From Chaetoderma sp. LZ-2023a (taxonomy: Eukaryota > Mollusca > Caudofoveata > Chaetodermatida > Chaetodermatidae), in assembly GCA_034401795.1 (NCBI GenBank), contig CM067359.1, positions 144,528,233-144,592,232 on the forward strand: DNA of 64,000 bases, given 5' to 3'. A program made the translations under genes and the position numbers. The notes beneath the pieces are model-generated. The model made no database searches. It was given only the letters and a program-made list of their open reading frames with translations, and was not told the origin of the DNA. This document shows positions 24,785 to 53,700 of this stretch, in pieces. Every line of letters starts with the position of its first letter. The stretch's first letter is position 1.

Positions 24785-24959
24785 CTTACCTGTATAGTTT
24801 TCTAGAAATTGAGTCATGGAATTGAGGGATCGATTGATCCCACCACTGGTGAGGCGTATGTAGAGCTTAGCTAAAGATGGGTGGGAATTAGCTAAAAACT
24901 GGATTGCTTCATTATCGGCATGGCTTACCATTTGCAGTGCTTGTTTATGTACAATTACC

Positions 24960-25429
24960 TACTCAATATCTGGTACAAAAACACGCCGGCAGACACTCCA
25001 CTGTTCTACTCAATATCTGGTACAAAAACACGCCGGCAGACACTCCACTGTTCTACTCAATATCTGGTACAAAAACACGCCGGCAGACACTCCACTGTTC
25101 TACTCAATATCTGGTACAAAAACACGCCGGCAGACACTCCACTGTTCTACTCAATATCTGGTACAAAAACACGCCGGCAGACACTCCACTGTTCTACTCA
25201 ATATCTGGTACAAAAACACGCCGGCAGACACTCCACTGTTCTACTCAATATCTGGTACAAAAACACGCCGGCAGACACTCCACTGTTCTACTCAATATCT
25301 GGTACAAAAACACGCCGGCAGACACTCCACTGTTCTACTCAATATCTGGTACAAAAACACGCCGGCAGACACTCCACTGTTCTACTCAATATCTGGTACA
25401 AAAACACGCCGGCAGACACTCCACTGTTC
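24960..25429 (+). repeat. Perfect tandem array, 10 x 47 bp
   Basis: Ten identical 47-bp units begin at 24960, 25007, 25054, 25101, 25148, 25195, 25242, 25289, 25336 and 25383. Each starts TACTCAATATCTGG, contains CACGCCGGCAGACACTCC and ends TGTTC. Because 47 mod 3 is 2, an ORF through the array cycles the three readings and stays open; I do not regard it as a gene. There are no spacers. Confidence 0.97.
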
Positions 25430-25651
25430 GGAATTTACCATTTCATCATCTAAAGTTTGATAACATCTGTTCTAAGATCCACGTTTATAGTTCTTAAGTC
25501 CCAGATTATGTTGTTGCAGTCGATACTATCAACATCAAGTATCAACAGATTACACAATGCTGAATTTCAGTCATGTATCTGCGGGAGTCAAGATTTATTT
25601 AAGCAGCTAAAAAGTAAGTTCCCCCCCTAAATAAGGGCTAATATTTTCCAA

Positions 25652-29700: not shown

Positions 29701-32700
29701 TATATAATCGTGATTACTCGATTAATCAGCTTGGGTAAAAATAAATAAATAAATTACCATGACGAAAGCTACAATGGTGTTTAGAAAAGTTCATTCGCAG
29801 GCCAAGAGAAGAATATTTTAATGCCTGTCACAATTCAAGAAAACCAGTTATTCCAGTGATATATACACCTGTGCAAAAGTTAAGCACCACCCTATTTTTA
29901 CGCACATGCGAGGGTATATTCATGTGCTATGAAGAAAGCAATAGCATAAACATTTATGTACCCATCCATCTTAGTGCAAGAGGTAATAATGCAACTAGAG
30001 GAATGCTGATTATGATGGTGGGGAAACACTGTATGGTTTTGTTTGAACTTGAAAACGAGGCCTGAATATGGTTACGTTGACACAACTGACAACTATTGCC
30101 CTACAGTTGACACACGTGGCTAGATTGTCATTAATGGTGTCTGAAAACGAAGTTTAACATCTGTGCACGAGTTTGAGACTGTCATTATTAATACCGGGTA
30201 TATCCACCTTGTGCCTGGATGACGGCCTGGACACGACGTCTCATGCTGGTCACCAACCGACTGATACGCCATTGTGGTATTCGTTGCCATTCAAGATGGA
30301 GTGCGTCTGTTAATTCCTGTAGGTTCTGCACAGGAGGATCCCTCCTTCTCACCATGTTTCCCAGAATGTCCCAGATATGCTCAATAGGGTTCATGTCAGG
30401 GCTCCTTGCTGGCCATGGTAGGGTTTCGATGGCATTCTGGCGGAGGTATTCATGCACAGCTCTAGCACGATGTGGTCGGGCGTTGTCATCCATGAATATA
30501 GGGTGGGTTCAAGGTGCATGATTTACAAAATGAGGGACCACAACTCTATCCAGTATGGAATCTTGATATCTTTGTCCATTTAGTGTTCCAGGTACAGTCA
30601 ACAGATCCAGCTTACAATCAAATGAGATGCACCCCCATATCATAACGGAACCTCCACCAAATGGAACTTCTTCCATGATGTTACGTTGGTCGTATGCCGT
30701 GTGTCTGGACCTCCATACACGAGTTCGACCATCTGTGGCATGAAGCAGGAACCGACTTTCATCGGACCAGTGTACCCGTCTCCAGGATCTCATGTTCCAG
30801 TGTCTTCTTTCGTTGCACCACCTCAGACGCTCCTCTTTGTGGTGTGCAGTGAGGAGAGGACGTCTGACAGGTCTCCTAGCTTTCATGCCAGCAGCATACA
30901 GTCTCCTTTTGACGGTAGACATTGACACTCTATTGCGCGTTTCCCATTGCTGGCTGAGCACTCTGCTGTTGGTGAATGGAGATCTCCTAACAAGGCGTAC
31001 TAGGGCTCGATCATCACGGGCAGTAGTCTTCTTCGGTCTTCCAGATCTAGGCCTGTCCTTCACCTCGTTAGTTTGCCCATGTTTTGCAATCAAATGACTG
31101 ATTACAGTATGGTTAATGTTCAGCTGTCTGCCAATCTCTCTGCATGACATACCAGTGGTATGCATGCCTATGATTTGCCATTTCACACGATCACTTAACC
31201 TTCGTCTTGCCATAGCGGTTCACAATCAAGAGCTAATTCTCTCTGTACAAATAAACCACGGTCATGAACACAAAATTCCTAATCTTGTCGCCTAAATCTG
31301 TATGTAATGTTCTACACCTCAAACTGGACTTTTACATAACTGAACATGTGTGCCGTTTCCCGCCATGCACGGACATCAAGCGGCGTGAAGTCATGCATGC
31401 ATGTGCATTTCGTACTTGGAATTATGTCAGCTAACGCGGGGACAAAAAGTATGGCAGCCTAGTTGTACCATCATGTTTCTACGTTCTATTGTTTTTGCTG
31501 GTGCTTAACTTTTGCACAGGTGTATATTTTCAAAAATAGTCTTCTCAAATGTTAATTTTCATGACAGATCGCATTAAAGAGTAATTAAAAGGTAGGTTTT
31601 GAAATATTTTATGCAATAGAAATTATTCACGATTATTCGATTATTTAATTTTCAATCATATAAATTCATGATTAAAACATAATTGCGATTTTCGATTTAA
31701 TCACGTAATCGCGTAAACCTGTCACAAACGATCCACCACCCACCCCGAGATATGACCATGAATATCCTTAAAAGAAGGGAAAAGGGACCTATCAAATGCT
31801 GTTGACTAGTAACCTCATATAATAATTAAAATACTAGCACCTGTAAAAAGCCTGTAAATGAATCGGAATGCGAGATAAAACATTTAGTAACTCAAGTAGT
31901 GATAGCCGATTCGCTTAACCAGGAAGCAATTAATGACACTGCTGGACCATCACACCACGCAGTGTGTATTTTGAAATTTATATGACTGGAGGCCATTGCT
32001 GCCTAAGGCAGCAATGGCTTCCAGTAATAATAATTTCAAACTATTCAAGTTTTCCGGTGTGGTTGCCTTGAAAATGTGATCTGAGGAATTCATCAGTGAA
32101 AGGTTTAATCAGTTCTTCTCACCTTTCATCCTTATCTTTCGGCAGTTTCTTGGCATCACCCAAACTTTTGATTACAAACTTAGAAATAGCATCTTCTCGC
32201 TTCTGCGCGATTCTGAAACAATAGATAACAAGAGCATTCAATCACCACCCCATTTTTGTCACAATCATGATATTGTAGATTTCTCTTATTTGATATGTGT
32301 GTTACCAATATGACATGTATTACCGCAGAGTGCAAGAGCACATTTAGATTTAGCTCCACCAAATGCCCCCAACCCATCCCCATGGGGCCTGGCAGGGGTC
32401 AAAGGATCAAATCGAAATGCAACTACTCTGAAACAGCTATACGAAATTCAGCCAAAATTTGATATGTTAGTTACCCATATGATTGAGGAGTCCTTGGTGT
32501 AGGGGATGGGTCAAAAGGTCAAATTTTAACGTGCAGAAATTTATTGTAACGCAACTCCTCCAAAACCATTGGATGGAATTCAACCAAATTTGCTATGTGG
32601 GAGATGATAACAACGTACTGAGTCTGTCCGCTTATTGTCTGCGAGTTCACCTAGGGAAGCCGGCGACCCTTACCCTGCTAGGTTGATGCCTATTGGCTCT

Positions 32701-35700: not shown

Positions 35701-38700
35701 TGTTGATCAGGGATTGCTTATTTTTGGTACTTGGGGTTGCTGCCGGTTCCTACGGCTGTGTTGGGTGGTGCTAGGACGATGTCGCCCTCCACCCTTCTTC
35801 TCTTTTGCGCTCTTTCTCTTCCCCTCTTGGGTGGGTCGACGGCCTTGCATCCCACACAATGGCTATGGCCGCCGGTTTGGTAGACGCCTGGTCATTGGCA
35901 ATGACATCGGTGTTTGACTGGGCCAACAGCGCGTCTGCATCCACTGAGTTTAGGCTCAGTCCCAAGATAGATGGTAGTATGACTACCTCCTTCTCCCTTG
36001 GCAACTGGTTGCTAGGCTGACTCATTGTAGAACTTAAGCTTGATAACAACGTAGTCAGATAATATAAAACCAAGACTGGTTATATGAGTAAAGCCTGATG
36101 CTTAGATGCTGTTGTGAATCCAGATGTCTGAATGGTCTGAAGCTACTTTTCAGGCCCCCCCCCTTTTATACCTTCCTGGGCTGAGCCTGGGGATTGGCTT
36201 GGATGTGCCCCTCTATGGGCACTGTGGTGATGGTAAGTCGCCATTTCTGACGGTTGTGGTCAACTTTTACCAGTTGGTGTTTTTACCGGTTGGGGCTGTC
36301 ATGGCGGCTGGGGTGTTTTTACTGGTTGGTGGTTTTTTGCCGGTTGTGGCTTTCATGGCGGCTCAGTAAAATTTTTAATGGTTGTGAAATATTTTTACCG
36401 GTTGTGGTATTAATGGTATATCGGTTGTGATTTTTTGGCAGTTTTTTGGCGGTTGTACCAAAATTTTCTTAAATACAGTTTAGTAGTAGTGGCGGAATTA
36501 AAATGATACCACGTCCCTCAACTGGATTTTCATTTAGACAAATGGTCATGGCCATGGCCAAGAATATAAAACTCCCGTGCGGACCCCACTGTCCGGGAGA
36601 ACCTCCTCAGGATACCGACCAGTGGCCGGCCTTTCTTATTCTGGCCGGTATCCTGAGGAAGTTTTTCTATCTGTGGGACACTTTTCTACCTATCCTACCC
36701 CACCTATCTCCTACCCCACCCTGTTGCTATTCCAGCCGGCTGGTGTGTGTGTGTGTGTCTGTGGTGCTTTTATACCGCACTGGGGAGTGTCGCGGTGTCT
36801 TTATCTAACCTGGTCATATTACCACGGCCTAGCGTCATACCTAGTTTCGAAAGTTCTAGCGAGGTCTTTTGAGCGGATTTGAACCCCAGTCTGTAGCCTG
36901 GGAATCCTATGCAATACTCTAGATAGTCACCCACCGCACCACTACTAAAATCTCGCCTCTTAGTAATCTTATCTCTGAGCGTGAGTATTGCGGTTACTGT
37001 GCTTATCAGTCTGACGTCACTTCGAGATAACGCAGTAGTAACAGCAATGAGAACACATAACTTATCAGCTATAATTACTAATGCATACATGGCCGAGGTA
37101 GTTAAGACGTGAGATCCTTGTTTTGTGTTTATTAGCAAACTTAGAATCACAGGTTCAAATCTCACTATTAACATTTGTGGATAACTCGGCCATTTCTGGT
37201 CTGATTTTAAAATGGTAAACAGTTTTGAAATTCTTGCTTCATTGCGGTCCTAATCGGTGCTAAGAATGCTGAGAATGAAGTGATTTCTCGGTACAATATA
37301 AGCATACACTCTCTCACAATACTGACACGTGGATCTGACGCGTGCGCATGCGTGCTAAGCGTTAGTAGTGTCGGGGTCAAAAGGATACCACCTCCCTCAA
37401 CTGGATTTTCATTTAGACAAATGAGATGGGGCTGAACGCCCATTTAGAGACAAGCCTCCACAGTGATATACACCACTGATCGCAATCAACCACAGGGCCG
37501 GCCTCTGTCTATTCTGTGTAGGCTCAGACAAACACGTAATCTCTGCCAGTCGCATCGGCATGAGGGGACCACCCATAGGGGCTTCTATCTACCTTGACAA
37601 CGCTCACCTGGGAGGAGGCTAAAGTGATTAGCATTTGAACCACGGTAGACTCTGGCATGTTCACATGTTACGCAGAGAATCTGGTGCTGAGCAGGGGTCT
37701 CCAGCAGACAACCACGGCCTACCCTCTCCACCCCATAGAAGTGGCAGACAGACTTGATCTCTTCACGTGGGTGAAAGCGGTCGTAAATGTTTCTCCGCAA
37801 GGGGTCGCCCCAAGGATTTTACTGGGGATCATCACGGAATTGGCCCACTTGGCAATATCATGGCAGTCTCAGCGCCCTGTGCCACTGCTGTAGAGGCCAG
37901 CATGAGCAGTATGATGAGAATCATGGCTATATATGAAGAGTTAAACTGCACAGAGTGAACCCCTCGAGAAATATCTGTGCCAGATCGAGCCCTGTTCCAT
38001 CCGGATCGATAGTGATCTTCATCCCCTCAGGGGCAGGGGCTAGCTGCTTCACTCTGCCGCCAGCTAAGAAACGTAGCTCTAGGACTATATGAGTCATTTG
38101 TGGGCTAGTGAGTCCGACTCACTGAAGCAGTTTAACAGCACCCTTGACTTTGGAGACATGTGACACACCATCTACCCGTAGGGTGCCCTCCTGGAGGTTA
38201 ACAGCTTCTTCTGGTCCATCGAATGGACGATGCAGCAGGAGCTTTCCACCTGTAACCCCGATCCGGTGACCCACCCTCGTCAGGGAGACACCTTCACCTA
38301 TGTAGGTGAGGAATGATGATCCCCGATTGTAGAGCTTTCGAACTGTCCCATCCTTTTTCACAACAGTGGAGAGGGGAGTAACCTGTCAATGACTGCGGGA
38401 GGTCCATATAGGGGCAACCGTTGCCAGTCACCCCCAGGTCCAGCGCGGTACCACACTTCATTCTTCAGAAATATGAGCTGCAGGTTTTTTTGCCAGGGTC
38501 AATAGCAGGCCATCATGGGCCATCGGCGGGGCACCGCTCGAATAGGGTTTGACCAGATGAAAGCTGAGGTCGTTATTTAGGGTGTTGATGTCTGCCACCT
38601 CTGTATCCGAGAGCTCAATCAACGGCTCGAGGATGTACTTCCTCTTCAGGAAATCGTACCGAAACACGATCTTGTGGCCATCTATGTTGCAACCCAGGCG

Positions 38701-41700
38701 CTCCTTCGTCACATCCTTGAGGTCTGTGAGCAGCTCCACCCCATCACCACCAATGGGGTGGAGGGAGAATGCCTTTGAGCTTGCTTCGCACTGTAGGGCG
38801 AATGACTTGCCATCGCTCTCTTCTACCTTGGCAGTATCAACTGCGTACACATCTGCGAGGTCAGCAAGACCAGTCGAGTGAGCAAATATGGGTTTCATAG
38901 CACACTATAGGAGGGGTTTAAACGAGACATATAACCATGCCGATTGTCTGGCTGCTGCTCTCTGGTGGTGAGAACATAATCTCACCCTCTCTAGAGGGGA
39001 GATGGGTGGTACAGCACCGTGTAGAATGGATCCTCTTCGAGGTGCCCCAGCGGGGTACAACCTTCCTTCCATCCGATGTGCTACATCAACCTCCGGGCAG
39101 TGCACACAGCAGCTCACTGGTAGAAGTTGGCCGGGACGTGATAGAGTATCTCTCAGGTGCCAACAGCAACCTATGGAAAGCTATCAGTCCTAGCCTGTTC
39201 ACACCTGTAAATCACCTGTTTGACAGCCCCTCCATTAACATATATGCCAGCACGGATGGGATATCGAATGCCCATTTAGAGTTTACACTCTTATTACTCA
39301 TTGACCTGACATGATATCACACCAGGAATATCTGACCTTTGCCGAGATGATGAAGAGCCTGCGACAGGATTGACCTTTCATGACCCCTGCACAGATAAAG
39401 GCCGTAAATGAACAGAGGCTCGCCCTGCAATAAGGAGAGCGACTACAGCGGGAGAGCTGGTATCAACGGAACGCAGCCTTGCAAGGAGGCGAAGGAACAG
39501 TGAAGGTTCTCGATACTGGCAGGCCCTCCAGGAGGAGAGTAAATGGGACGATGTCTTCACATACGACGATGAGCCAGATGTAGTGGAGACCGCGGACGAT
39601 GCAGCGGAGAGCCGGGCGAGGATGAGCCAGAGAATAAGCGGGACGATGAGCCAGATGTCTTCACAGATGAGGATGAGCCAGATGTCATACAGTGGGAAGA
39701 GGAGATGGCGCAGAAGTGTAAGACCAAGAAAGCCATCCAGCGGCGGACCTACTATCTTGGTCATAAGGTGTCGTTCCAGATGTCACGTCTCAGAAAGTTA
39801 CTGGCACCCGACATAGTGCTGGATGATCTCTGTCTAAGAGACGTCTGTCTCGAAACCAGCAAGCTGGCACGGTTCGCCAGGCTCTCCAAAATGTACCCTT
39901 CTAGGACTCATGAGCAGATGCAGGTTTAATCTCCATGTATACTATGGCAAAATCAGTGGCAGAAGCAAGCAGAAATATACCCCTCTCTGACGGCTGACGA
40001 GGGTGGTACCATCCACGGCTGGCGACTCCCGCAGATAGATACCATCAGACAGAATCTAAGCCATGAGGCAGAAAAGTACAGCAGAATGAGCAGGCGATAT
40101 AAGACAGCCTACAACGTCCTCGCGCATACAACCACTGCTGCGGGTGTGATTGGAGCCAGTGCCGGGGTGGCAGCTGTGGCCACTCTCGCTACAGCGGTGG
40201 GGGGGGGGGGGGCATCATCGCCATCCCGCTGGGTGGTGTGGCACTAGCCGCCACTGTCTTGGCCACGGGCTTGGGGCAGCGCCAGATCACAAGGAGGCTG
40301 GAGAGGCATGTTAATTACGTGGCACTGGCACAGAGTATGCTACGGAGTAGCGACGAGTCTGTAAGCAAAGCTCTCGAGGATGGCCAGGTCACCGATGAAG
40401 AGTACCACCATATATTGAAGGTCCAAGCCCTGTACCGCTCGGAGAAACCTAAAGTGCGACAGCAATACCTCAAAGGCTCCAGCGGGCGGGTTGTTATGGA
40501 GGAGTTAAAAAACGCTGGTCTCTGGAGTCAAGATGACTACAAATAGTGTGCTGCAGTAGCTTTAAGAACACCAGTATAGATGGCCTTCCCACTGAAACTT
40601 ACGACAGTCATCCGGAGCCAACCACCCCTCCTGGGTACACCCTTGACTGGCCTGAGAGGTCTACTGGATGATATACCAGAGCTAACACCGTTCTCCATCA
40701 CAGTGGATGGACGGTCCCGAACCAGCTTCTCTGTCAACCCACGACCGCTGACCAACCGCCCCATCACCATCAAGGATGCGAAGCAAGCTCATACTTGGAT
40801 GGCTGCTCCAAGCCTCTCATACTGGAATCAGCAGCTGAACTTTGCCGTGTGGTGTGCCACGGCAGGATGTGGAGTACGTTTCACCCTGCTTCACTCCTAT
40901 TCTGGTACTCCTGAAGCTGGGCTCATCGCCGGCTGTCTCAGATTCCACGTGTACTTCACGGTGCGACGAATCCTCCATGAGCTGGGTGCAAGCCTCCCTG
41001 ATACAAACGCCTTCAACCCACAGCTCAACAGTCATAGCGTCTCAGCGGCCTGCAGACTACAGAGAGAGTTCAGCGCTCACCCAGACTATCGGCGGCATGG
41101 TGGTGACAACAGCAGTCTAGGGGTTATGTACGGTGACCCGAGACGTGACTACTCAGGATTCCCCTATCGAACCCCCCGACGAGTAGGCTGTCGGAAGACA
41201 GCGACATTCTCATTCGATCCAGACTCCGACCCTGGAGCACTGGTGCAAAATATGCACATCACTGGCTTGCGGCAGGACTATCCAGATGTGTGGAAGTACT
41301 TTGTCCCGCACACCACCTCAGGCCTCACACCAGCAGGGATCGTTCGGATCAACCAGTCCCTGGAAGCACTGTGCTAGTGCCTCCTTACGGCACAGACCCA
41401 GCTGCGGCATTCCATAGATGGTGTCAGCGGAGCAGAGATCCAGGCCATGTTCATCAGTCTCGTTGAGGATATGATCATCGTGGCAGACCCCAGTAGTCTT
41501 ATTGCTAAGTTCCAGCAGGGGTTGCAGAAGGCCCGTCACAAACTTGACTTTGCTATTTCGCCACACCTACGGTTGATTCCGAGCAACATGATCGTGAACA
41601 TCGAGGACCTCCAAGTCAGGGGCTATAACAACATGATAGTCGAGGGGAGTTCCCCCGGTGTCCACTTCGGCTTCAACACTGCCATCAACGCACCTACGCG

Positions 41701-44700
41701 TAGTACGAGCCATACAGGCGTTCCGACCCTGACACTGCAGCCAGCCGACAGGGCAGCTCCAGGCGCCCGACACTGCAGCCAGTCGACACGACACCGCTTC
41801 CCGTGGGAGCTCTACGTGTGGTGTCAGGCATAGCTATCGTGGCGCTCGGGATCAGTCTACTCTGCCGCTAGCAAATCAGCTATAAGACTATCCTGACTCT
41901 CTACAGTAGCAGTGGGGACCCCGGTGAGACACTGAACCAGCTTGGCATGCCCTACAGTCCCTATACCCGCTGCCAACATGCACATCCAAGGGCTGGAGGG
42001 TTCGGCTGTGCATTCTTTTTCCAGCTTGTATCACAGAGCCTTGTTCAGCTCCGAGTCCGGTGAGGCCATGGCGGTCTGCAACTGCTGGAACACATCTGAC
42101 AGATACTCCAGATCCTTGTAGAAACCTTTAGCTCGCAGGAGCTGCTCGACAATACTCCCGCCCATGATAAGGTATTCGAGGAATCAGATCTGTCCCTTGC
42201 CAAATCCTAGATAGAGCTTCACAGCTGTCAGCTCAGCATCGGAGAGCTGAGCGAGCTCATCTGGTGTCTTCTTTTTCTTGTAGTCCTTCAACTCCCTCCG
42301 GAAGACATCATAGTACTTCTCGCATAGCGTGAGCCCGGACATGTTTAAGATCTTTCAATAGAGAGATGAATATTCCCGAGTACTAACCCGGCCACCTGGC
42401 AGACACAGACTGGGAAGATCTTATTAGCTCTCTCGACAGGCGATGCAGACGTTTAACCGCGTTGTATACTCAGTGCTTAAACAATGACGTCAACGGTACA
42501 GATCGTGAAGCAACTGGGCGAGAGCCAGACGAGTCTTCAGAAGGTGGAGAACCTGCTGCGAACCAAGACACAGAAGTTACTGACCAAAGCAAATCCTCTG
42601 GCAGTCCATGTCGCCAGTAATGTGGCCATGGTGAAGATGACAGGGGGAAGTGAGGTTCTTCCTGCCGCCACCGCGGCTGTCCTCGCTACAGTGGTGAGTG
42701 AGGTGGCCGGGCACTGTCTCGGAATAACTCACCCCATCCCAAAGATCATCCTCAGTGGTGCCTCCTACACTGTTGCTGCCAAGATCATGGGTGAACGCGT
42801 TACACTAATGGAGGCTGCGGTTCTAGGGCTAGCAACGAGTGCAATGGCTGAGATCATCGTCGCCTACGTTTAACCCCTCTGAATAGTGAGAGATGGATCA
42901 TGAGACCCCTGCAGCATATGAGGCATGGCGTGCCGGAGGGCGGTGTGTAGCCCATAGTCGAGCACGCGGACTGAGGATTGCCAATGTCTGGGAATGGTGG
43001 ACCGCCCACAAGGCATGCCCCTGCAGAGGGCCAGTACCCTGAGCACTGCTACCTATTCCCTTGGCCGACTGCGTGGTCCTCCTATGCCCAACTATTTCAC
43101 TGGGGGTATGACTAGGTTTAAGCCGTCTGTCTATGACTATGACTCTGTCACTCACAGACCTAGAAAGCAGTGCTAGGTGATCTTGCTCACTTGGGCGAGG
43201 CACGCCTCGGTTCAGAGGACACTGTTGCCACTATCTCCTTCCTAGCCTTCGATGAGAAGGGAGATCCGAGGTACCATCCCAGCCCGAGATCTCATCGGGA
43301 TCACTGATACGGTAGGACAATCGGCCATTAACAAGGCCAAGACTGTATACAAGGGGATGGGCATCAAGGAGAAGGCGACAATGCGAGGTATGCTCGGAGT
43401 CCATAAGGCTGGAGCCATCAAGGTTATGGCTGAGTCCTATGCACAGGACCTGGTTATGGATCTCCTGAGACCACGGAGCACATTCATCCAGGATGGAGGT
43501 AATCTCAAGATAGGCACCCTCAGCCTGAACAGTATCACTGTCGATGGCCAAACAGGTGCAGGTGCTGTCGACAGCCTCCGGCTACCAGAGGTGCTGGGGT
43601 CAGGGATCTTCAATTTGCCGCGTAAGTAAGCCCACAGGATACTCATGGCTTTGCATGTATCATACAGATGCTGGATGTACTAGACACATTGGCTGCTGAC
43701 ACAGGCCGTCTACGCTATCTTCTCAGCTGCTGCTGGGATTTCACGCTTGACGCCTCCATCGCGTCCTTCGTATCCGCCGGAGGTGCAGGATGATCCTCCG
43801 GCTACCAGAGGTGAAGGGTCAGGGCTCTTGAATTTGCCATTTAAGACCACAGGATAGTCATGGCTTCCCGTGCATGTATCATACAGATACTGGATGTACT
43901 AGACACTGTGGGTGCTGACACAGGCCCTCTACGCTAACTTCTCAGCTGCTGCTGGGATTTCATGCTTGACGCCTCCATCGCATCCTTCGTATCCGCCGGA
44001 GGTGCAGGATTACCCGCTCTGCAGGCGAAAGAGCTGGTGCAGGAAGTACTGCCGTTTAGTCTCCCAGATATAGACGAGGCTACCGCCGACCAAGTGCTAA
44101 CCACCCACCGCACGCATGTCTGTACCATTCAACAGTAGACGGCAGATAGAATCCATGGATGCGGCGCCATATGGCTTCTTATGGCAGATCCACAGATGTC
44201 TATCATTCAACCGTAATGAGTCTGTCCGTTTTTTGTACTTAGTCAAAGCACGGACTGGGCACCAGACACTGGCATCACGATCAAACCTACTTAGTTTCGG
44301 TATAATGATCGGTTTGCCGGGATATCTAAAAGATTGATTCTTTGACATAAACTCTGCTCTTGGCAGTAGACGCAGACCCTCTCTGGAGACAATAAATCGG
44401 TCCCTCTCTGCTGAAAGTGCATGGATCTCACTGCGCCTTCTAGCTGAGGAAGCTGCCAATAGAAAGACTGCCTTTAGACTCAAATGCTTTATACTAGCCG
44501 AAAGCAACGGTTCGAAAGGGTGCTTGGCCAGTACATTAAGCACTAAAGATAGACTCCAGGCTGGAATGACTCCCGGTTGTCTCGGTCGGAGATTGCTCAT
44601 TCCCTTCACCATCACATTCAACTGGGTCACCTCTGGACTATCCCTGTTGGCTAGACAAGGGATAACTGATGCCAAAGCTGACTTGTATCCAGCAATTGTG

Positions 44701-47700
44701 ACAGGAGCTAGTCCTGAAAAGAACAGCTCACAGAGAAAGTCTGCTATTTGCTGAATAGTGGAATGAAAGGTATCAATACCCTTTTCTTCACACCAGTCTG
44801 CAAATCTGTTAACCTTGTTGTTATATTAATTGAAGGGTGACCTCCTTCTCGCAGTTGCGATGAAATCTGCAGCTTGTCGAGAAAAGCCTTCCGACGTGGA
44901 ACGTTGTTTGATAACATCCACGCAGTCAATTCGAACATTTCGGGGCGCTCGTGTAGGAATCATCCCTTGGCCTGGGAGATTATGTTCGGAATCTTGGGTA
45001 ACTGCACTGGATTTTCCACCAGCAGATCTAGAAGATCCGTGAACAATGCCCTGCTGGGTCAAATGGCGCTATTAGCAGGACCAGGCACGGTTCCTCCCTG
45101 ATCTTCGCCAATATCTTCGGTAGAAGAATGGTGGGTGGGTACGCGTAAGCGTGCATCCCTCTCCAGCTTAACGCCAGAGCGTCTGTATCGACGGCATTTG
45201 GATCTGGAATCGGCGAGACATAAGTCATGATTTGAGCATTTTCCCTTGTGGTGAACAAGTCCACGTTGGGTTTGCGTCAATGCTCGAAGACCCTGTGAAG
45301 AACTGGAGGGTTGAGAGACCATTCTGTTGGATGAATTCTCTGTCTGCGAGACAAAGTATCCGCCAGAATGTTCAATCGCCCAGGAATATAAGCTGCTTTC
45401 AAAACAACCGAGTAATTCCTGCACCATTGAATCAAGTTCCACACTTTGATACATAGTGTGGGTGACTTGGTCCCGCCATGGCGATTTATGTATGATACTA
45501 CTGTCGAGTTGTCCGACCGTATCAATATCCAATATCGCCTTGCCCCTGACTTTTGGAAGAAACTTTTCCAATGCCAGTTCCACTGCCATCATTTCCAACA
45601 GATTGATATGCAGCTGGCTCTCTTGGAGAGTCCATGTGCCCGAGACCTGGTGTACTCCCAGGCAGGCCCCCCCCCCACATCCCTCCAGCGATGCGTCCGT
45701 GTACACGGACAGCTGGGGGTGGGGTAGGTGCAGCGAAACTCCTACTATGAGATTCTGACGCTTTTTCCATCATACAAGATGCGACATTATTGGCTCCAAA
45801 ACTGGCACCAGTTTTGACAGGGGTTCTGTTCTCTGTTTCCACAGACACATCAGATACAACTGGATAGGTCTTCGCATCAGAGCAGCGTACGGGATTACCT
45901 GCTCCATGGAGACCATCATCTGAAGAAACCGCCTCACCTGAATGTGGTTTCCCAATCGAAAACTCTTGAGGATGGCTAACAGAGACACCACTCTGGGCTC
46001 TGACGGGTAACCCCTGCCCTCCTCGAGATCGAATCGCACCCTTAAATAAATGAAATGTTGAGTGGGTGTCAACTCGGATCTCTCCTTGTTGACTATCCAG
46101 CCTAGATCTGAAAGCAACTTCAGTGTCAGAGCAGTATCCACCTCGAACCTGGCTGATGTGTCTGCTTTGATCAGCCAATCGTCTATGTAGGTGTGAAGCA
46201 TCACGTTCTCAGAAACCTGTGACAACTCCTGTTCATTGGAATGTGGAAATATGCATCTTTCAGATTGATCGATACACACCACATTCCCTTCCCCAATCCT
46301 GCCATTACCGACCTCAGTTTCCACCTGAAACCGAGGCGTATGGATAAACCAATTTAATGGCCTGAGATTGAGTACGGGTCTCCATCCCCCTGTGCTCTTG
46401 GGGACAAGGAACATGTTTAAATAGAAGCCTGGTGTTCCAGTTTGCTGGTTTTATTTCTCCCGTCAGAAGCAAATGTGACACTTTGTTATGAATGGCTTCT
46501 AACTTGTCTGGTTCCCTTCGAACGGGTGTCCAGACAGGTGCCAAAGACAGATTCTGTGGTGGAAAGTCCCACCACTCTGGCATGTACCCCTGGGATAACC
46601 ATCCCAGGACCAGACTGTCTGACGTCACACCTCGCCAAGCCTCGACGAAAAGCATGAGCCTTCCACCCACTATAGATGCCTAATGGGGGTGTCTGGCTCG
46701 CGATCCGCTCCCCCCCGCCCTCTTGACGAGAGAGAGAGAGAACCATTTTGGTCCTGGCTTTGCCGGTCTAACTGGCACCGCCGTTCCTGTCACACAGGTG
46801 CGGTCCAGGCAGATGCGAAGGGAGCCCTCGTACCCTCAGGTACGATTCGCTCCCTTCTGTCCGCCCTTTGAGGACTTACCCTCCCCTTCCCGCCTCTCGG
46901 GAAATCAGGAGAAACATTGGGGAGGGTAGGGGCCTCCACAACCTTGGCTTTCTTCACCGGAGGCGGCTGAGAAAACCCAGTAGAAACAGAAGCAGCACTA
47001 GGCTTCGCTTTCGCCTTGCTTTTCTGCTTCTTAGAAGGTTGCCCGGTCAGCGGCTTGACTACAGCCCCTAGTGCGTGCGGTTGACACACTAGCTCTAGCT
47101 GCAGATTAACCGCCATCCGATTCTGCGCAATGTCCTCTAAGATGGCCCGCGCCTGGCCACCAAAGATGCTAGGGCCTGTCAGGGGCGTCCCAAGAAGACG
47201 CTCCCTGACGGCAGTAGCTGGATGCATATGGTCAAGGACCATCTGCCTCCTGGACTTAGTCACACGCGCCTGCACCCTTGCCAATGCGTCCATAGACAGC
47301 ACCAGGCCGTCATTAACGCACGAATGCGCCACAGGTGGCACAGAGTGGCCTGCCCCCCGCTTCAGCCCACACCGACTGAAGAAGACGATGAGTGGTTGAC
47401 AGCACTCATTGCTGTCCTCACACCATCATCACATAGGGACAGGACTTCATCATGGTGTACCTGAGCTTTGTCCACCAGTGCCGGGGTGGGGCCACCCGCT
47501 CCAGCACTCTGGACACCCAGTACCCAGCGGTCATCCTCGGTGACCGACGGGACAACACCATACCTGTTGTAGTCCCCCCGTGGAATACGACACCTTGCCT
47601 GCACCTTCCTGGAGGCTGCAGGAAGCTGGCCCTCGGTCATGAGTTGTTTGCTATAAATAGCATCAACCAACTCCATAAACCTTGGATCCAGTCCAATAGA

Positions 47701-50700
47701 CTGGATCCGGGCTGCGGGCAAGATCCCCGTCCTAATCGATGCAACAGATGGATGGGGTGCATCCTCCTCGGTCGTGGTCGAAACCACAGATGGGTCTACC
47801 CTGGCTAGCCAAACCAGAGCCTCAGACCAATCTGTCTCTGAGGAGGACACTTCCGTGAACACGTCACCCGTTGACATGTTCACGGCCCTACCCGCAACGG
47901 CCTCCCGGCTAGGAGCCATTGCTGATATGCCAGGAATTCCGGTACCGTATGGTTCCGCCGCCACCCCATGGAACACACCAGTCCATGGAGTACGCCCGCA
48001 CGGAAAACCGTGCGGACCCGTAGCGGTTGAGGAACCGTGGCCAAACATGGGCGCCAACGGCACCCCATGTCTGACCGCTGGACCAGGCGAGATAGGTAAG
48101 TACCACGCCTGGCCAGCCACACCCGTCACTGTGTCGGTTGGCGGCAAACCAACCATCACGGGACCGGTGCCCGCTACCGGAGTGGCCTCAACCACGGGCG
48201 GAGCCGCTGCCCTGGCTTGCACCAAGCCAGACAGATGGAGGACGGAATCGACCTCCATGCTCTCCACCCGCGGCATCACAGGCCGCAGCAACTTCTCCTC
48301 CTCATCTTCAGACCCCGAAGAGTCGTCACTAGACGAGGAAACTGTGGAGCCATCCTGGCGGATGGCTCCCATGCCTGACGGACCGGCCACCGCTACTGGA
48401 CCACCCGGAGAGACAGAACCCATCAGGCCAGAGCCCGACGGGACTGCCAGGGGGCCGTACGAGATGGCTCCCTCGGTGGCCAGTCCAGAACCCTGTCCAA
48501 GGACAGGGTCTGAATCAAACATGGGGAGAGACCGCTCTACAACTTTTGGCAGCAGGGATGACACCAGCGTGGGCAGAACGCTATGCAAGAAGCCTTGCAT
48601 AGCAGGACCAAACCACGCCGGCGGTGCCATCTCCGCCACCTCCGGTTGCAGACGTGGAACGGCCCCAAGGGCAGAAACGGACGCTCCACGATTTACTTTC
48701 GGACCGCCTGACCCCGCGTCAGACCCTGCCAAGTCCTTCTGGGCAAGGAACTTAAGCCTCATATCGACCGACCACACTTACACCTACTGTCACGATTACA
48801 CTTAGTACAGCGGAAACAGACATGGTCCTTGAATAGAACCTGTACGAATTTGTGGCACTCGTCACATGATGGCGGGGCTGGCTTGGCCTATAAATAAGCA
48901 CAAACCTACAATAAGCAAACGGAACGAAACAGAAATGGAAGGCAGACAATTAATTTTCAAATATTTTGACCATAAATTAACTGTAAACCCTCCCGCACCC
49001 CACCCTGCAACGTTACAGCAAAGATCGCATTGATTAAAACGACAAGAACGAAGCGGGCAATAATACACCCATACACTGATCCTCAAGGATGTATAACGGA
49101 ACCAGGAATCATATCACATAGCATTCGGGGTATATTTACTAATAAATAAAAATTATACTCCTAATGAAGGCCAAAACGATATGTGAAGAAACAACAAAAT
49201 GTAAATAAACTGCTGTAGCACACGGTAAAACTGCAGACCACACATCTAAATCAAGAATTTTGAAACCACTGACCATTGCAAACAGATCGTGATAACACGC
49301 AAAACTTGAAAATTCCAAAGTTTTTCTGGTACTAATAAAAGCACGCAGCACCTAGAATCAGATGCGCGAATTAATGAAACATTTTCTTCGCATAAACATC
49401 CGAGTAACACGGTGTGACATCACCCGCTCGGATCTTACGGAGAACGACGTCAGCCGATTTTCGTGTTTAAAAACACTGATAAGCCAACACCGTATTTCAT
49501 ATCTGCTGATCGCCTGTTGGGGTTAAAGGAAGGCGATCATCTGGCATATTTCGTTGTTAACACACTTCCCAGATTCTTTGGGGTTAGAAATTGGAACATG
49601 CGACACAGACACAATTTTGAAGACCTAAGTCTTTTAACTATGGAATAACATGGAAAAATACAACCTGGTTATCATCAGCAGCATCCATTATAATCCAAAA
49701 TCCTTTAGAGAGCACACAAAGCTATCACAATTTACACAGAAAAAAGACTTAATATAATCTCAAGATTTCCAACTGCAAAAAAGCATGTGTCTCTTGTTGC
49801 TATGCGAACAAGAATGAGCTTCATGGCAAACGGGTACTCGGCAGTTGGGAGCCGAGTACCCGGTTCCAGGAGTCGTTAAAGCTTACTAAGTCTATAGTCC
49901 TAGGGCCCAGATATCAGGGCTAGCTGTATCTGAAGTAATAGAATGGTGAGTATTGATCGAAGGAGAAATCATGGTGTATATCCCTGCGGAGACATGTCTC
50001 TAAATGGCCGTTCAGACCCTATTATGTGTGGTGATCAGTACCTGTGGGTGGTGTATATCCCTGTGGATGCGTCTCTAAATTGGCGTTCCGACTATTATAT
50101 GTAGCGATCAATACCTGTAGGTGGTGTATATCCCTGTCTCTAAACGGGCGTTCAGACCCTATTATGTGTGACGATCAGTACCTGTGGGTGAGGTATATCC
50201 CTGTGGATGCCTGTCTCTAAATGGGCATTCAGACCCTATTATGTGTGGTGCTGGCGATTAGTACCTGTGGGTGGAATATATCCCTGTGGATGCCTGTCTC
50301 TAAATGCGCGTTCAGACCCTATTATGTGTGTGGGGGCGGTGCGATGCATGCCCCCTGGACAGGATAGTACGCGTGTGTGTATAAAGCCCTATGAGAGGTA
50401 TGGCTAAGTCCGTAAGAACGCATAGCAGGCATGCGCACGCGTCAGATCCATGTGTCAGTATTGTGAGTGTATGCTTATATTGTACCGAGAAATCCCTTCA
50501 TTCTCTGCATTCTTGGCACCGATTAGGACCGGAATGAAGCGAGAATTTCAAAACTGTTTACCATTTTAAAATCGGACCAGAAATGGCCGAGTTATCCACA
50601 AATGGTAATAGCGAGATTTGAACCTGTGATTTTAAGTTTGCTAATAAACACAAAACAAGGATCTCATGCCTTAACTACCTCGGCCATGTATGCATTAGTA

Positions 50701-53700
50701 ATTATAGCTGATAAGTTATGTGTTCTCATTGCTGTTACTGCATTACCTAGAAGTGACGTCAGACTGATAAGCGCAGTAACCACAATACTCACGCTCAGAG
50801 ATAAGATTACTAAGAGGCGAGATTTTAGTAGTGTTGCGGTGGGTCACTCACTAGAGTATTGCATAGGATTCCCAGGCTGCAGACTGGGGTTCAAATCCGC
50901 TCAAAAGACCTCGCTAGAACTTACCTGAAATTTCAAAACTAGGTAAGACGCTAGGCTGGGGTAATATGACCAGGTTAGATAAAGATCCACTGCGACACTC
51001 CCCAGTGCGGGGTAAAAGCACCACAGACACACACACCAGCCGGCAATAGGTAGGATAGGATAGGTAGAAGTGTCCCACAGATAGAAAAACCTCAGGATAC
51101 CCGCCGGAATAATAAAGGCCGGCCACTGGCCGGTATCCTGAGGAGGTTCTCCCGGACAGTGGGGTCCGCACAGGAGTTTTATATTCTTGGCCATGCCCAT
51201 TTGTCTAAATGGAAATCCAGTTGAGGGAGGTGGTATCATTTTAATTCCGCCACTACTACTAGTTTTTACCGGTTGTATCACTTTTAATGGTATGTATCTC
51301 TTGGTATACGATTGGCAAAAGTTTGGGAACTGAAATTTGCTATGTGAATTACCCATATTCTTCCGGAGTGAAAAAGGACATTTACACTTCGTTCCGCCAC
51401 CACGGGTGGGATGGGGGTCTAACGTGCAAGAAATTAATTGTAACACAACTCTTCCGAAACCATTAGATGTTTTTCCAACCAAATTTAGTATGTGATGTTA
51501 TGTACCCATATGATTGCAGGGTGCAAAAGGTCATTTACATTTACTCCACCATCCAGCAGGTATGCCAGGGGGGGGGGGGTCCGCTGAGGTGGGTCAAAAC
51601 GTGGGTATTTGCGACGCCGCGTCATCGACCGAGCAATCCGGTTTAATTTAATTTGAAATTTTTTACATCAGAGTGGTAAGGGTCAAATATGCTATCAATG
51701 GTTAAATGGTCCAAATTCTTGAGAAATGTCCATTTACAGGCCAAAGTGAAAATGTACTAATGGAGTGACTCGCTCGATAACTCAGCCAGTCATTCCAGTG
51801 GTATATTTTCAAAAATAGTATTCTCGTCCTGTACTTAATGGCCATTCTGACACTACACAAAATTTTAATTTTCTCAGCAGATCTTGATCAATAACGGGTT
51901 TTAATCAAAATGCGGCCATTGATTTAAAAATTCTGCTTCACATGACTGGCAGAATTAGGGCTTCCAGTAATTTCTAAGACTGAGACTTCCTCAGAAATAG
52001 TTCTGGGAGTCCAAACAGGAAACATGGAAGTTTAAACTGGTTCACATGCATGTAATTAACTTTGCTTAGCGCATTCACAGACCAATCCCTTGAAAAATAA
52101 ATTCTTTATGATATAAAACTTATTCTGATGAATATTTTGATATTAATTTGACAGCAAGCTTCCAGACAAATTCATTTCAAAATAATCAACAGTGTTCCTG
52201 TATGGTTGCATTGAAAATGAGATATGGCGAATTTATTGTTGAAGTGTTAAAGTCATTGATGTCAGTGCAAAAATTAGGACGTCCAGGACTGTCTTGCTAC
52301 TTGGTTTGGAAGTTGAAACATGAACTTTTGGGAGCATAGTACTCCCGGACTTCCAGTAGTTGAGTCCCTGGTTAAAATCTGTAAAATTTCATGTCAGATT
52401 AACCATCACAATCTAAAAATGATAAATTCTTTATAATACATGTAAAGAATATGTTGTTGAATAATTTGAAACTAATTTTACTGGGAGATTTTGCTGCCTA
52501 TGGCAACAGGTCTAAGCCAAATTAGTTTTAGATTATTCAGCAGATTTCCTGTACAGTTGGCTTGAAATGGACTTTTTCACATTTGTTTCAATTTTCAACC
52601 TTTTTCAATGTTTAACCATTTAAGCCTCAACTCAGTCAAAAGCAGCTTCTGCAGTGATCTTGAGCCTTCCAGTCAAATTAATTTCTAAACATTCCATAGA
52701 TTAAGTTTTATATCGTGTCAAACTAAGAAAATTTTAATTAACCCTTTCAGTTGATTCGATCTCCAAGTGTCATTTCATTAGCGTTGTGCATAATGCTCTG
52801 GTTAGCCCCTCCAAATGTCTGGATTGACACCCAGTGGGTTACACCCCTGCGCCACGTTGAGGCCGAGCATATAGTCTTAAACAGGGGCAACAACCCTTTC
52901 AGTGATTAATTCCCACATTTTAAGGCAACCGTACAAAACTTAAATAGTTAATTAATTTGACTGGAAGCAGTTGCCTGCCTCAGACAGCAATGGCTTTCAG
53001 TAAAAATATGTTCAAAATATTCAACACACTAAGTTTTATATCTTGTTACACCAAAAAAAAAAATGTTTAAAATTAAATATGATTATTTATGATTATACAA
53101 AATAAAGTTAGTTTTTTTGGACATTTAAAATAAATTTATTAATTGTTAAATAATTATTTTTATTTTCACCCACACAAATCACCCACCCAATAGGCTACAA
53201 AATCTGGTGCTATCCACTCTTTATACGTATCATTACATTTCCATATAGAAGAATATTTGCACTTTCACATGATCGCGACATTTGTTTAACGCAATCTACC
53301 ATACAAACATTATATAATTATAATTGCGCAGACATTACTTTCTTGATGGCTATCTAAACGCAACTGATTCAATGTTTAAAAATTCATAAATACTATGGCC
53401 TCTTGCAATTGACAAGTTCAGACACATTTTACTCAAGCTTAAGTGTGTTCCCGTTATGGTTACAGTTAACAGCGCAGTTTAGCATACACCGGGAACCAAT
53501 CTGATGTTGCCGACCATAAACTCTCGTGCAATAACGGCACGATTTTGTGATACTGGCGAGAATTCGTGTTTGATGACGTTTAACACACGCCGAAGTGTGT
53601 TCCCGATACGGTTAAACACGCAGTTTAGCTTACACCGGGAACCAAACGCCGATATTTTGCGAGAATTCGTGTTTGATGATGATTTATGAGAAAATGTCTG

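Follow-up and report, generated by a model that had tools for sequence, protein, structure and literature searches.

The window, the whole stretch of 64,000 nucleotides analysed here (Chaetoderma sp. LZ-2023a, contig CM067359.1, positions 144,528,233 to 144,592,232), contains a Polinton element at 36482-51262, which is composed of a Polinton/Maverick left arm (36482-44143), a decayed DIRS-like retrotransposon and a Polinton right end. The element was compared with ten sister copies, each of which was taken as two separate 10-kb pieces from its left tip (for example, L023 and L024) and examined piecewise. Two types of tip, A and B, are present among the copies. The features of the window copy are:

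36477-36481, no strand: left target-site duplication AGTTT, read directly
36482-37363, plus strand: left terminal inverted repeat with tip AGTAGTAGTGGCGG (type B); sister copies start at most 2 bases from the same position
37363-37423, plus strand: inner second copy of the tip, 90% match to 36484-36544 (repeat family D3)
38119-38904, minus strand: reading frame beside the left end, broken into pieces of 88 and 148 amino acids (aa), in DNA common to sister copies; no Pfam or PHROGs match over the cut-off
38937-39314, plus strand: open reading frame (ORF) named in the original prediction, which may not be a gene; no family match and no clear codon signal
40580-41833, plus strand: the 40580 gene, recognised by its protein relatives, of a family without Pfam match; interrupted by one in-frame stop (41375-41377) and analysed as two pieces
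42481-42873, plus strand: 129-aa ORF in DNA common to sister copies
43246-43629, plus strand: 125-aa ORF in DNA common to sister copies
43575-44010, no strand: tandem duplication of about 220 bp inside the Polinton (repeat analysis, sister copies)
44116-44143, plus strand: remnant of the packaging ATPase gene, consisting of its first codons and broken off ahead of the Walker A motif (read by eye)
44143/44144, no strand: junction of the Polinton ATPase gene and the truncated DIRS; of the 40 places scored, the window alone has it
44144-49967, minus strand: decayed DIRS-like tyrosine-recombinase retrotransposon, recombinase end cut off at 44144 (match to L024, domains)
44144-44825, minus strand: tyrosine recombinase frame without its C-terminal end (frames compared with L024)
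45059-46450, minus strand: reverse transcriptase and RNase H, each in a frame of its own (RVT_1 at E 1.8e-4, under the cut-off; RT_RNaseH_2 at E 0.053)
46790-48777, minus strand: GAG-like frames of the DIRS, assigned by position only, no family match
49927-49967, no strand: DIRS terminal repeat, with an inverted copy at L024:411-451 (95%, sequence comparison)
49972-50330, no strand: tandem repeats with a unit of about 77 bp, Polinton right end (repeat analysis, sister copies)
50417-51262, minus strand: right terminal inverted repeat, long form (inverted-repeat pairing, sister copies)
51263-51267, no strand: right target-site duplication AGTTT, read directly

The original prediction, made from the sequence of the window, had described two inverted repeats of about 0.85 kb, AG-starting tips and a 5-bp AGTTT duplication around a virus-like element, and all three were recovered. 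In the alignment of the left and right terminal repeats, 832 bases were aligned with 42 mismatches and 64 gap columns (Kimura two-parameter distance 0.052). The tips start with AG, in the form AGTAGT, and read AGTAGTAGTGGCGG...CCGCCACTACTACT (left repeat tip versus right repeat tip), and the duplication is perfect, its right copy lying 2 bases past the right end given earlier. In the genome, the left end gave 44 matching stretches at at least 40 places, the two ends of the window included (40 of 4048 candidates were scored), and since the sister copies also begin within 2 bases of the same position, the pairing of the repeats in the window is not due to chance. The inner tip copy at 37363-37423 faces the same way as the outer tip, as though a newer end had been attached beyond an earlier one.

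The genes between these repeats had been taken for one compact cluster of about twelve. This is not the case for about 5.8 kb of the interior (44144-49967), which consists of a foreign, minus-strand retrotransposon of DIRS-like type that owns the ORFs found there. This stretch matches L024:1198-7000 at 82-92%, and the DIRS in L024 contains RVT_1 (E 1.7e-21) and RT_RNaseH (E 6.4e-6), both over the cut-off, a long frame overlapping pol with a match to Phage_int_SAM_1 below the cut-off (E 5.9e-4), a GAG-like frame, and a marginal methyltransferase match (Dam, E 0.077). Window 49790-49955 is present in inverted form at L024:142-312 (84%). Because the sequence ending at 49967 is repeated inverted at L024:411-451, this position is very likely the true end of the DIRS. 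An ungapped scan of L024:600-7400, a range that leaves the terminal places at 142-451 outside, gave one 19-nt complementary pair only. At the other end, the recombinase end present in L024 is missing, and the window recombinase directly abuts the first codons of the Polinton ATPase gene. When the 201 bases around this join were searched in the genome, the window alone spanned it and the 39 other places matched the DIRS side only (40 of 2660 candidates scored). Compared with DIRS1-like retrotransposons, as described in the accessible part of PMC3266345, the insert shares reverse transcriptase with RNase H, appears to share the GAG-like frame, the overlapping recombinase and pol frames (seen in L024) and the inverted terminal repeat, and differs in that the window copy is without one end and in that the methyltransferase match in L024 is marginal.

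The original prediction had also noted that polymerase, integrase and packaging ATPase are absent from the window, which agrees with the tblastn search of the PolB, integrase and ATPase pieces from sister copies (E ≤ 1e-5), where no match was obtained in the window apart from the first few ATPase codons. In the sister copies these genes are present in place of the DIRS. BLAST matches of eight of the ten copies run from 36482 to about 44140-44147 of the window (pieces at 86-92%), and in the other two the left-arm match ends early, at 40779 in L009 and at 38703 in L027. In the five copies with both flanks readable, this point is followed by 7.7-10.3 kb absent from the window and then by the tandem repeats of 49972-50330; the longest such stretch (L021/L022) holds an inserted transposon. 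By tblastn (E ≤ 1e-5), the ATPase was found in 8, the rve integrase in 6 and the catalytic part of PolB in 7 of the 10 sister copies (in two of the latter seven the match covers 65% and 56% of the piece), and PolB, reading back from the right end, matches PF03175 over the curated cut-off (E 4.2e-9). Among the copies lacking genes, three are truncated (L009/L010, L023/L024 and L027/L028) and one, L017/L018, is rearranged. After the left arm of L017/L018 comes another piece of the family in inverted orientation (L018:1181-6864), which means nested or rearranged copies. The same transposase-like ORF (Tc1/mariner type by eye) was found at window 30509-31219 and inserted in a sister Polinton at L022:8461-9489.

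The abundance of the family was estimated with 29-mers at up to 3 mismatches in 2.44 Gb of genome. The 40580-gene 29-mer occurred 3053 times, the integrase 29-mer 2445 times, and the 29-mers of two PolB types 1722 (type B) and 463 (type A) times; the reversed-pattern control gave 0 matches for each. Each PolB 29-mer differs from the other type by at least 8 mismatches in the ten second halves of the copies. The ratios between these counts are rough, as conservation may differ from pattern to pattern, and sequence of other contigs may recur in some small ones (matches in C720 and C2366 score equal). Since the counts for integrase and PolB approach the count for the 40580 gene and the sister copies carry these genes, the lack of a polymerase is not a trait of the family. 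In addition, PF03175 gave at least 147 matches in the genome (75 of 2661 candidates scored), some in frames of more than 1000 aa and with up to 111 bits, against 36 for the piece from the Polinton family, so that other PolB-bearing lineages are probably also present.

Thus, the genome search with the terminal repeats that had been proposed recovered related copies with the same start and with PolB and integrase, which points to a Polinton relative, and the suggested kinship to Polinton/Maverick elements is borne out by the ends and by the PolB, integrase and ATPase of the sister copies, features by which the family would be classed with the Polintons. According to the part of PMC8097293 that is available, (AGT)2//(ACT)2 is the commonest end motif of intact vertebrate Mavericks, and these have terminal repeats of 46-1447 bp, a length of 12,723-24,620 bp and a 6-bp duplication. 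The window tips are of the same (AGT)2//(ACT)2 form and its repeat and element sizes fall within these ranges; PolB, rve integrase and ATPase (here in the sister copies) and mostly decayed copies are likewise shared.

The window element is therefore best explained as a deleted, DIRS-interrupted fossil of a Polinton/Maverick family and not as a polymerase-free class, with a probability of roughly 0.93. As judged from their genes, complete members of the family would copy linear DNA with terminal inverted repeats by a protein-primed PolB, would be inserted by a retrovirus-like integrase with a short target duplication, and would be packaged by an A32-like ATPase. The window copy would have inserted with a 5-bp duplication, a DIRS-like retrotransposon would have come in next to the tandem repeats of the right end, and a deletion would then have taken the recombinase end of the DIRS, PolB, the integrase and the start of the ATPase gene beyond its first codons. 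The insertion of the DIRS before the deletion is the rather more probable order. The idea of a structural-gene-only derivative would apply to this one copy only as the product of a deletion, with remaining genes that may or may not be structural, and does not hold for the family, which keeps its replication genes.

Several observations weigh against this explanation. The order of insertion and deletion is inferred, and the junction count covers 40 of 2660 candidates. In the sister copies, the ATPase (Pox_A32, E 8.4e-4) and the integrase (rve, E 3.1e-6) are both below the curated cut-offs. No profile match to a capsid protein (double or single jelly-roll) or penton was obtained in the scanned ORFs of the window and sister copies, and none to an Ulp1/adenain-type cysteine protease among the ORF pieces scanned against Pfam, so these two classic Polinton features, capsid and protease, would be assumed by analogy. 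A perfect 5-bp duplication was read in only four of the seven copies with both ends read (window AGTTT, L013/L014 CATGT, L019/L020 GGCCC, L025/L026 GGGTG); it matches at 4 of 5 bases in L011/L012, is ambiguous in L015/L016 and is lacking in L021/L022. Furthermore, relative to the vertebrate Mavericks as presented in the same part of PMC8097293, the duplication is 5 bp instead of 6 bp, and the ATPase is on the strand of the integrase instead of with PolB. With regard to the ATPase, a homology search with the sister sequence gave 2 proteins, and the relative P0122 carries PF04665. With regard to the capsid, a large ORF in the stretch lost from the window is a candidate and may, as a guess, encode the capsid protein; the homology search with this piece gave nothing among 1324 candidates. 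The interior of the sister copies also encodes an acidic protein with hydrophobic stretches and no family match.

Among the alternatives, the one that survives best is that the deletion came first and produced a shortened, non-autonomous Polinton that full copies may have mobilised and into which a DIRS later inserted exactly at the scar. The similarity of the terminal repeats, the presence of the duplication and the existence of a short deleted copy (L023, with about 650 bp only between the two flanks) are in line with this, but the DIRS is itself cut at the junction, with the recombinase C-terminus and the far terminal repeat gone, unlike a clean insertion, and no second place with the 44143/44144 join was found among the 40 scored, so this order of events is considered unlikely. 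Slightly less likely again is the insertion of two DIRS in one Polinton followed by a recombination between them that removed the interior. This would account in one event for a single DIRS flanked by Polinton sequence and for the loss of about 8 kb; however, the recombination of complete copies should leave both DIRS ends and the DIRS in the window is without one, unless the left DIRS was already truncated. An assembly chimera in which the two Polinton arms and the DIRS were falsely joined, an error that abundant repeats allow, is very improbable, as unlinked copies would show matching 5-bp duplications and same-type tips at both ends only by chance. A distinct class of virus-like element that natively has no polymerase, integrase or ATPase and depends on helper elements to move, the separate lineage of the original prediction, can practically be set aside, since good ends and a duplication without any of those genes speak for it in the window alone, and against it stand the genes of the sister copies, the genome-wide 29-mer counts and a junction that cuts the ATPase gene and is absent from the 39 other scored places. 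Such a class is not needed to explain the locus, and a false lead is thereby removed.

To follow the decay of the family, mismatches among copies were compared. The left arm of the window differs by 5.9-7.6% from 11 sequences (the ten first halves and the reversed L018 piece), and a third-position bias was not clear in any of 18 segments of the left arm, where the ratio was 0.47-1.36 (1.19 for 40580-41377). The copies look like the product of one burst that would since have decayed almost neutrally. Codon constraint among the copies was considered as a test of whether the ORFs are real genes and was rejected, because its failure reflects only the decay after the burst. In the comparison of the two PolB types, the mismatch in the catalytic piece was 0.50-0.52 at position 3 against 0.22-0.24 and 0.12-0.13 at the other two (4 comparisons, ratio 2.78-3.06), and the third-position ratio in the N-terminal piece was 1.92-2.48. 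This concentration of between-type mismatches at third codon positions indicates selection on PolB during the active period of the elements. Among type A sequences the ratio was 0.98-1.92 (7 comparisons), where a slight constraint on PolB may also be visible, within type B it was 0.42 (1 comparison), and for the integrase it was 0.61-1.66 (5 comparisons).

Among the Polinton ORFs of the window, 40580-41377 was searched in a large protein database and the others were searched against Pfam and PHROGs. No significant match was obtained for the ORF pieces in Pfam and PHROGs, including the proteins at 40580-41833, 38119-38898 and 38937-39314, for which profile searches had been recommended, and an Rfam scan of the window gave nothing at gathering scores. 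In the large database, 128 proteins matched the 40580-41377 piece at E ≤ 0.01 among 569 candidates (120 listed). Homologues and codon constraint had been named as the check on the internal ORFs; homologues were thus found for 40580-41377, and a clear codon bias was not seen among the copies. The first piece is 40% identical to a relative of 424 aa, and the second, read by eye, appears to continue the same gene across the stop. By protein search, the gene is present at at least 144 places in the genome (144 of 8338 candidates scored) with 88-94% identity, the window itself excluded, and many of the listed places keep open frames of at least 400 aa.

When 32 members of the 40580 family were scanned, no Pfam family matched more than one of them, and the best match (E 0.001) was to a low-complexity extensin model. 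Neither the 40580 piece nor the family alignment A2 gave a match in PDB sequence searches, no relative was found in four viral_contigs scans, and no mention of the protein was found in the available portions of PMC4028283 and PMC11071308. The invariant residues of the family cluster in two stretches of 13 and 11 residues. By eye and with no predictor, the relatives look helical, and several members, also by eye, end in a hydrophobic C-terminal segment. With these properties, the protein is not claimed as a major capsid protein; a membrane or virion accessory protein is our guess.

The two tip types are A (AGTAGTATAGCCGG) and B (AGTAGTAGTGGCGG and close variants). Of the seven copies with both ends read, six have left and right tips of one type; the remaining copy, L021/L022, is also without a duplication. 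In all seven readable copies the PolB type matches the right tip (type A in L014, L020, L022 and L026; type B in L012, L016 and L004). Between the two types, most aligned pieces of the PolB arm show about 72-75% identity, whereas the left arms are not split by PolB or tip type, with a pairwise mismatch of 0.058-0.092 among nine copies of both types. A PolB type tied to its tip type on a shared left arm suggests modular or cassette exchange between Polinton subfamilies. The link between right tip and PolB may be mere physical linkage, and a left tip that follows the PolB type would fit the copying of one end onto the other in protein-primed replication. Taken further, the family could be a divergent Polinton lineage, undescribed in the literature covered here, that built up about 3000 copies in the genome of a single animal, duplicates 5 bp of its target, gives no capsid or protease profile match and encodes a conserved protein whose C-terminus is hydrophobic. 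In this lineage two PolB types about 27% apart would swap as cassettes with their own tips, and the left tip would be rewritten to match; this fuller picture is put forward tentatively and is doubtful as a whole.

Adintoviruses are animal elements of similar size with PolB, integrase and ATPase. Unlike them, the family described here has no recognised hexon, penton or protease, and its 40580 protein has no relative in viral_contigs. In copy number, about 3000 gene copies in this genome contrast with at most 287 in vertebrate Mavericks, the highest counts in the accessible text of PMC8097293 being 287 (axolotl) and 280 (tuatara). Copy numbers in the thousands per genome are also seen in the protist Maverick/Polinton-like expansions of PMC10120064, where the part available gives 2,535 and 3,251 MCP (capsid) genes in two protist species; the host here is an animal and not a protist, since 38 exon matches in its genome group into about eleven Wnt genes, a family that marks animals. 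An MHC-I search of the host gave no match and its control gave none either, so that a jawed-vertebrate host is not supported by it and the host is perhaps outside that clade. No animal Polinton expansion of such size was found in a limited literature search that included the accessible part of PMC6431247 and had most subscription journals outside it. An animal genome that holds a Polinton family in thousands of copies provides sufficient similar ones for studying how the two ends of protein-primed elements are kept alike, and the abundance of the family and the pattern of tips and polymerases, which bears on the joint evolution of polymerase and end sequence, are the parts worth further work.

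Outside the element, a tandem array at window 24864-25497 encodes one repeated peptide, which is the same whichever of the three plus-strand frames is read.

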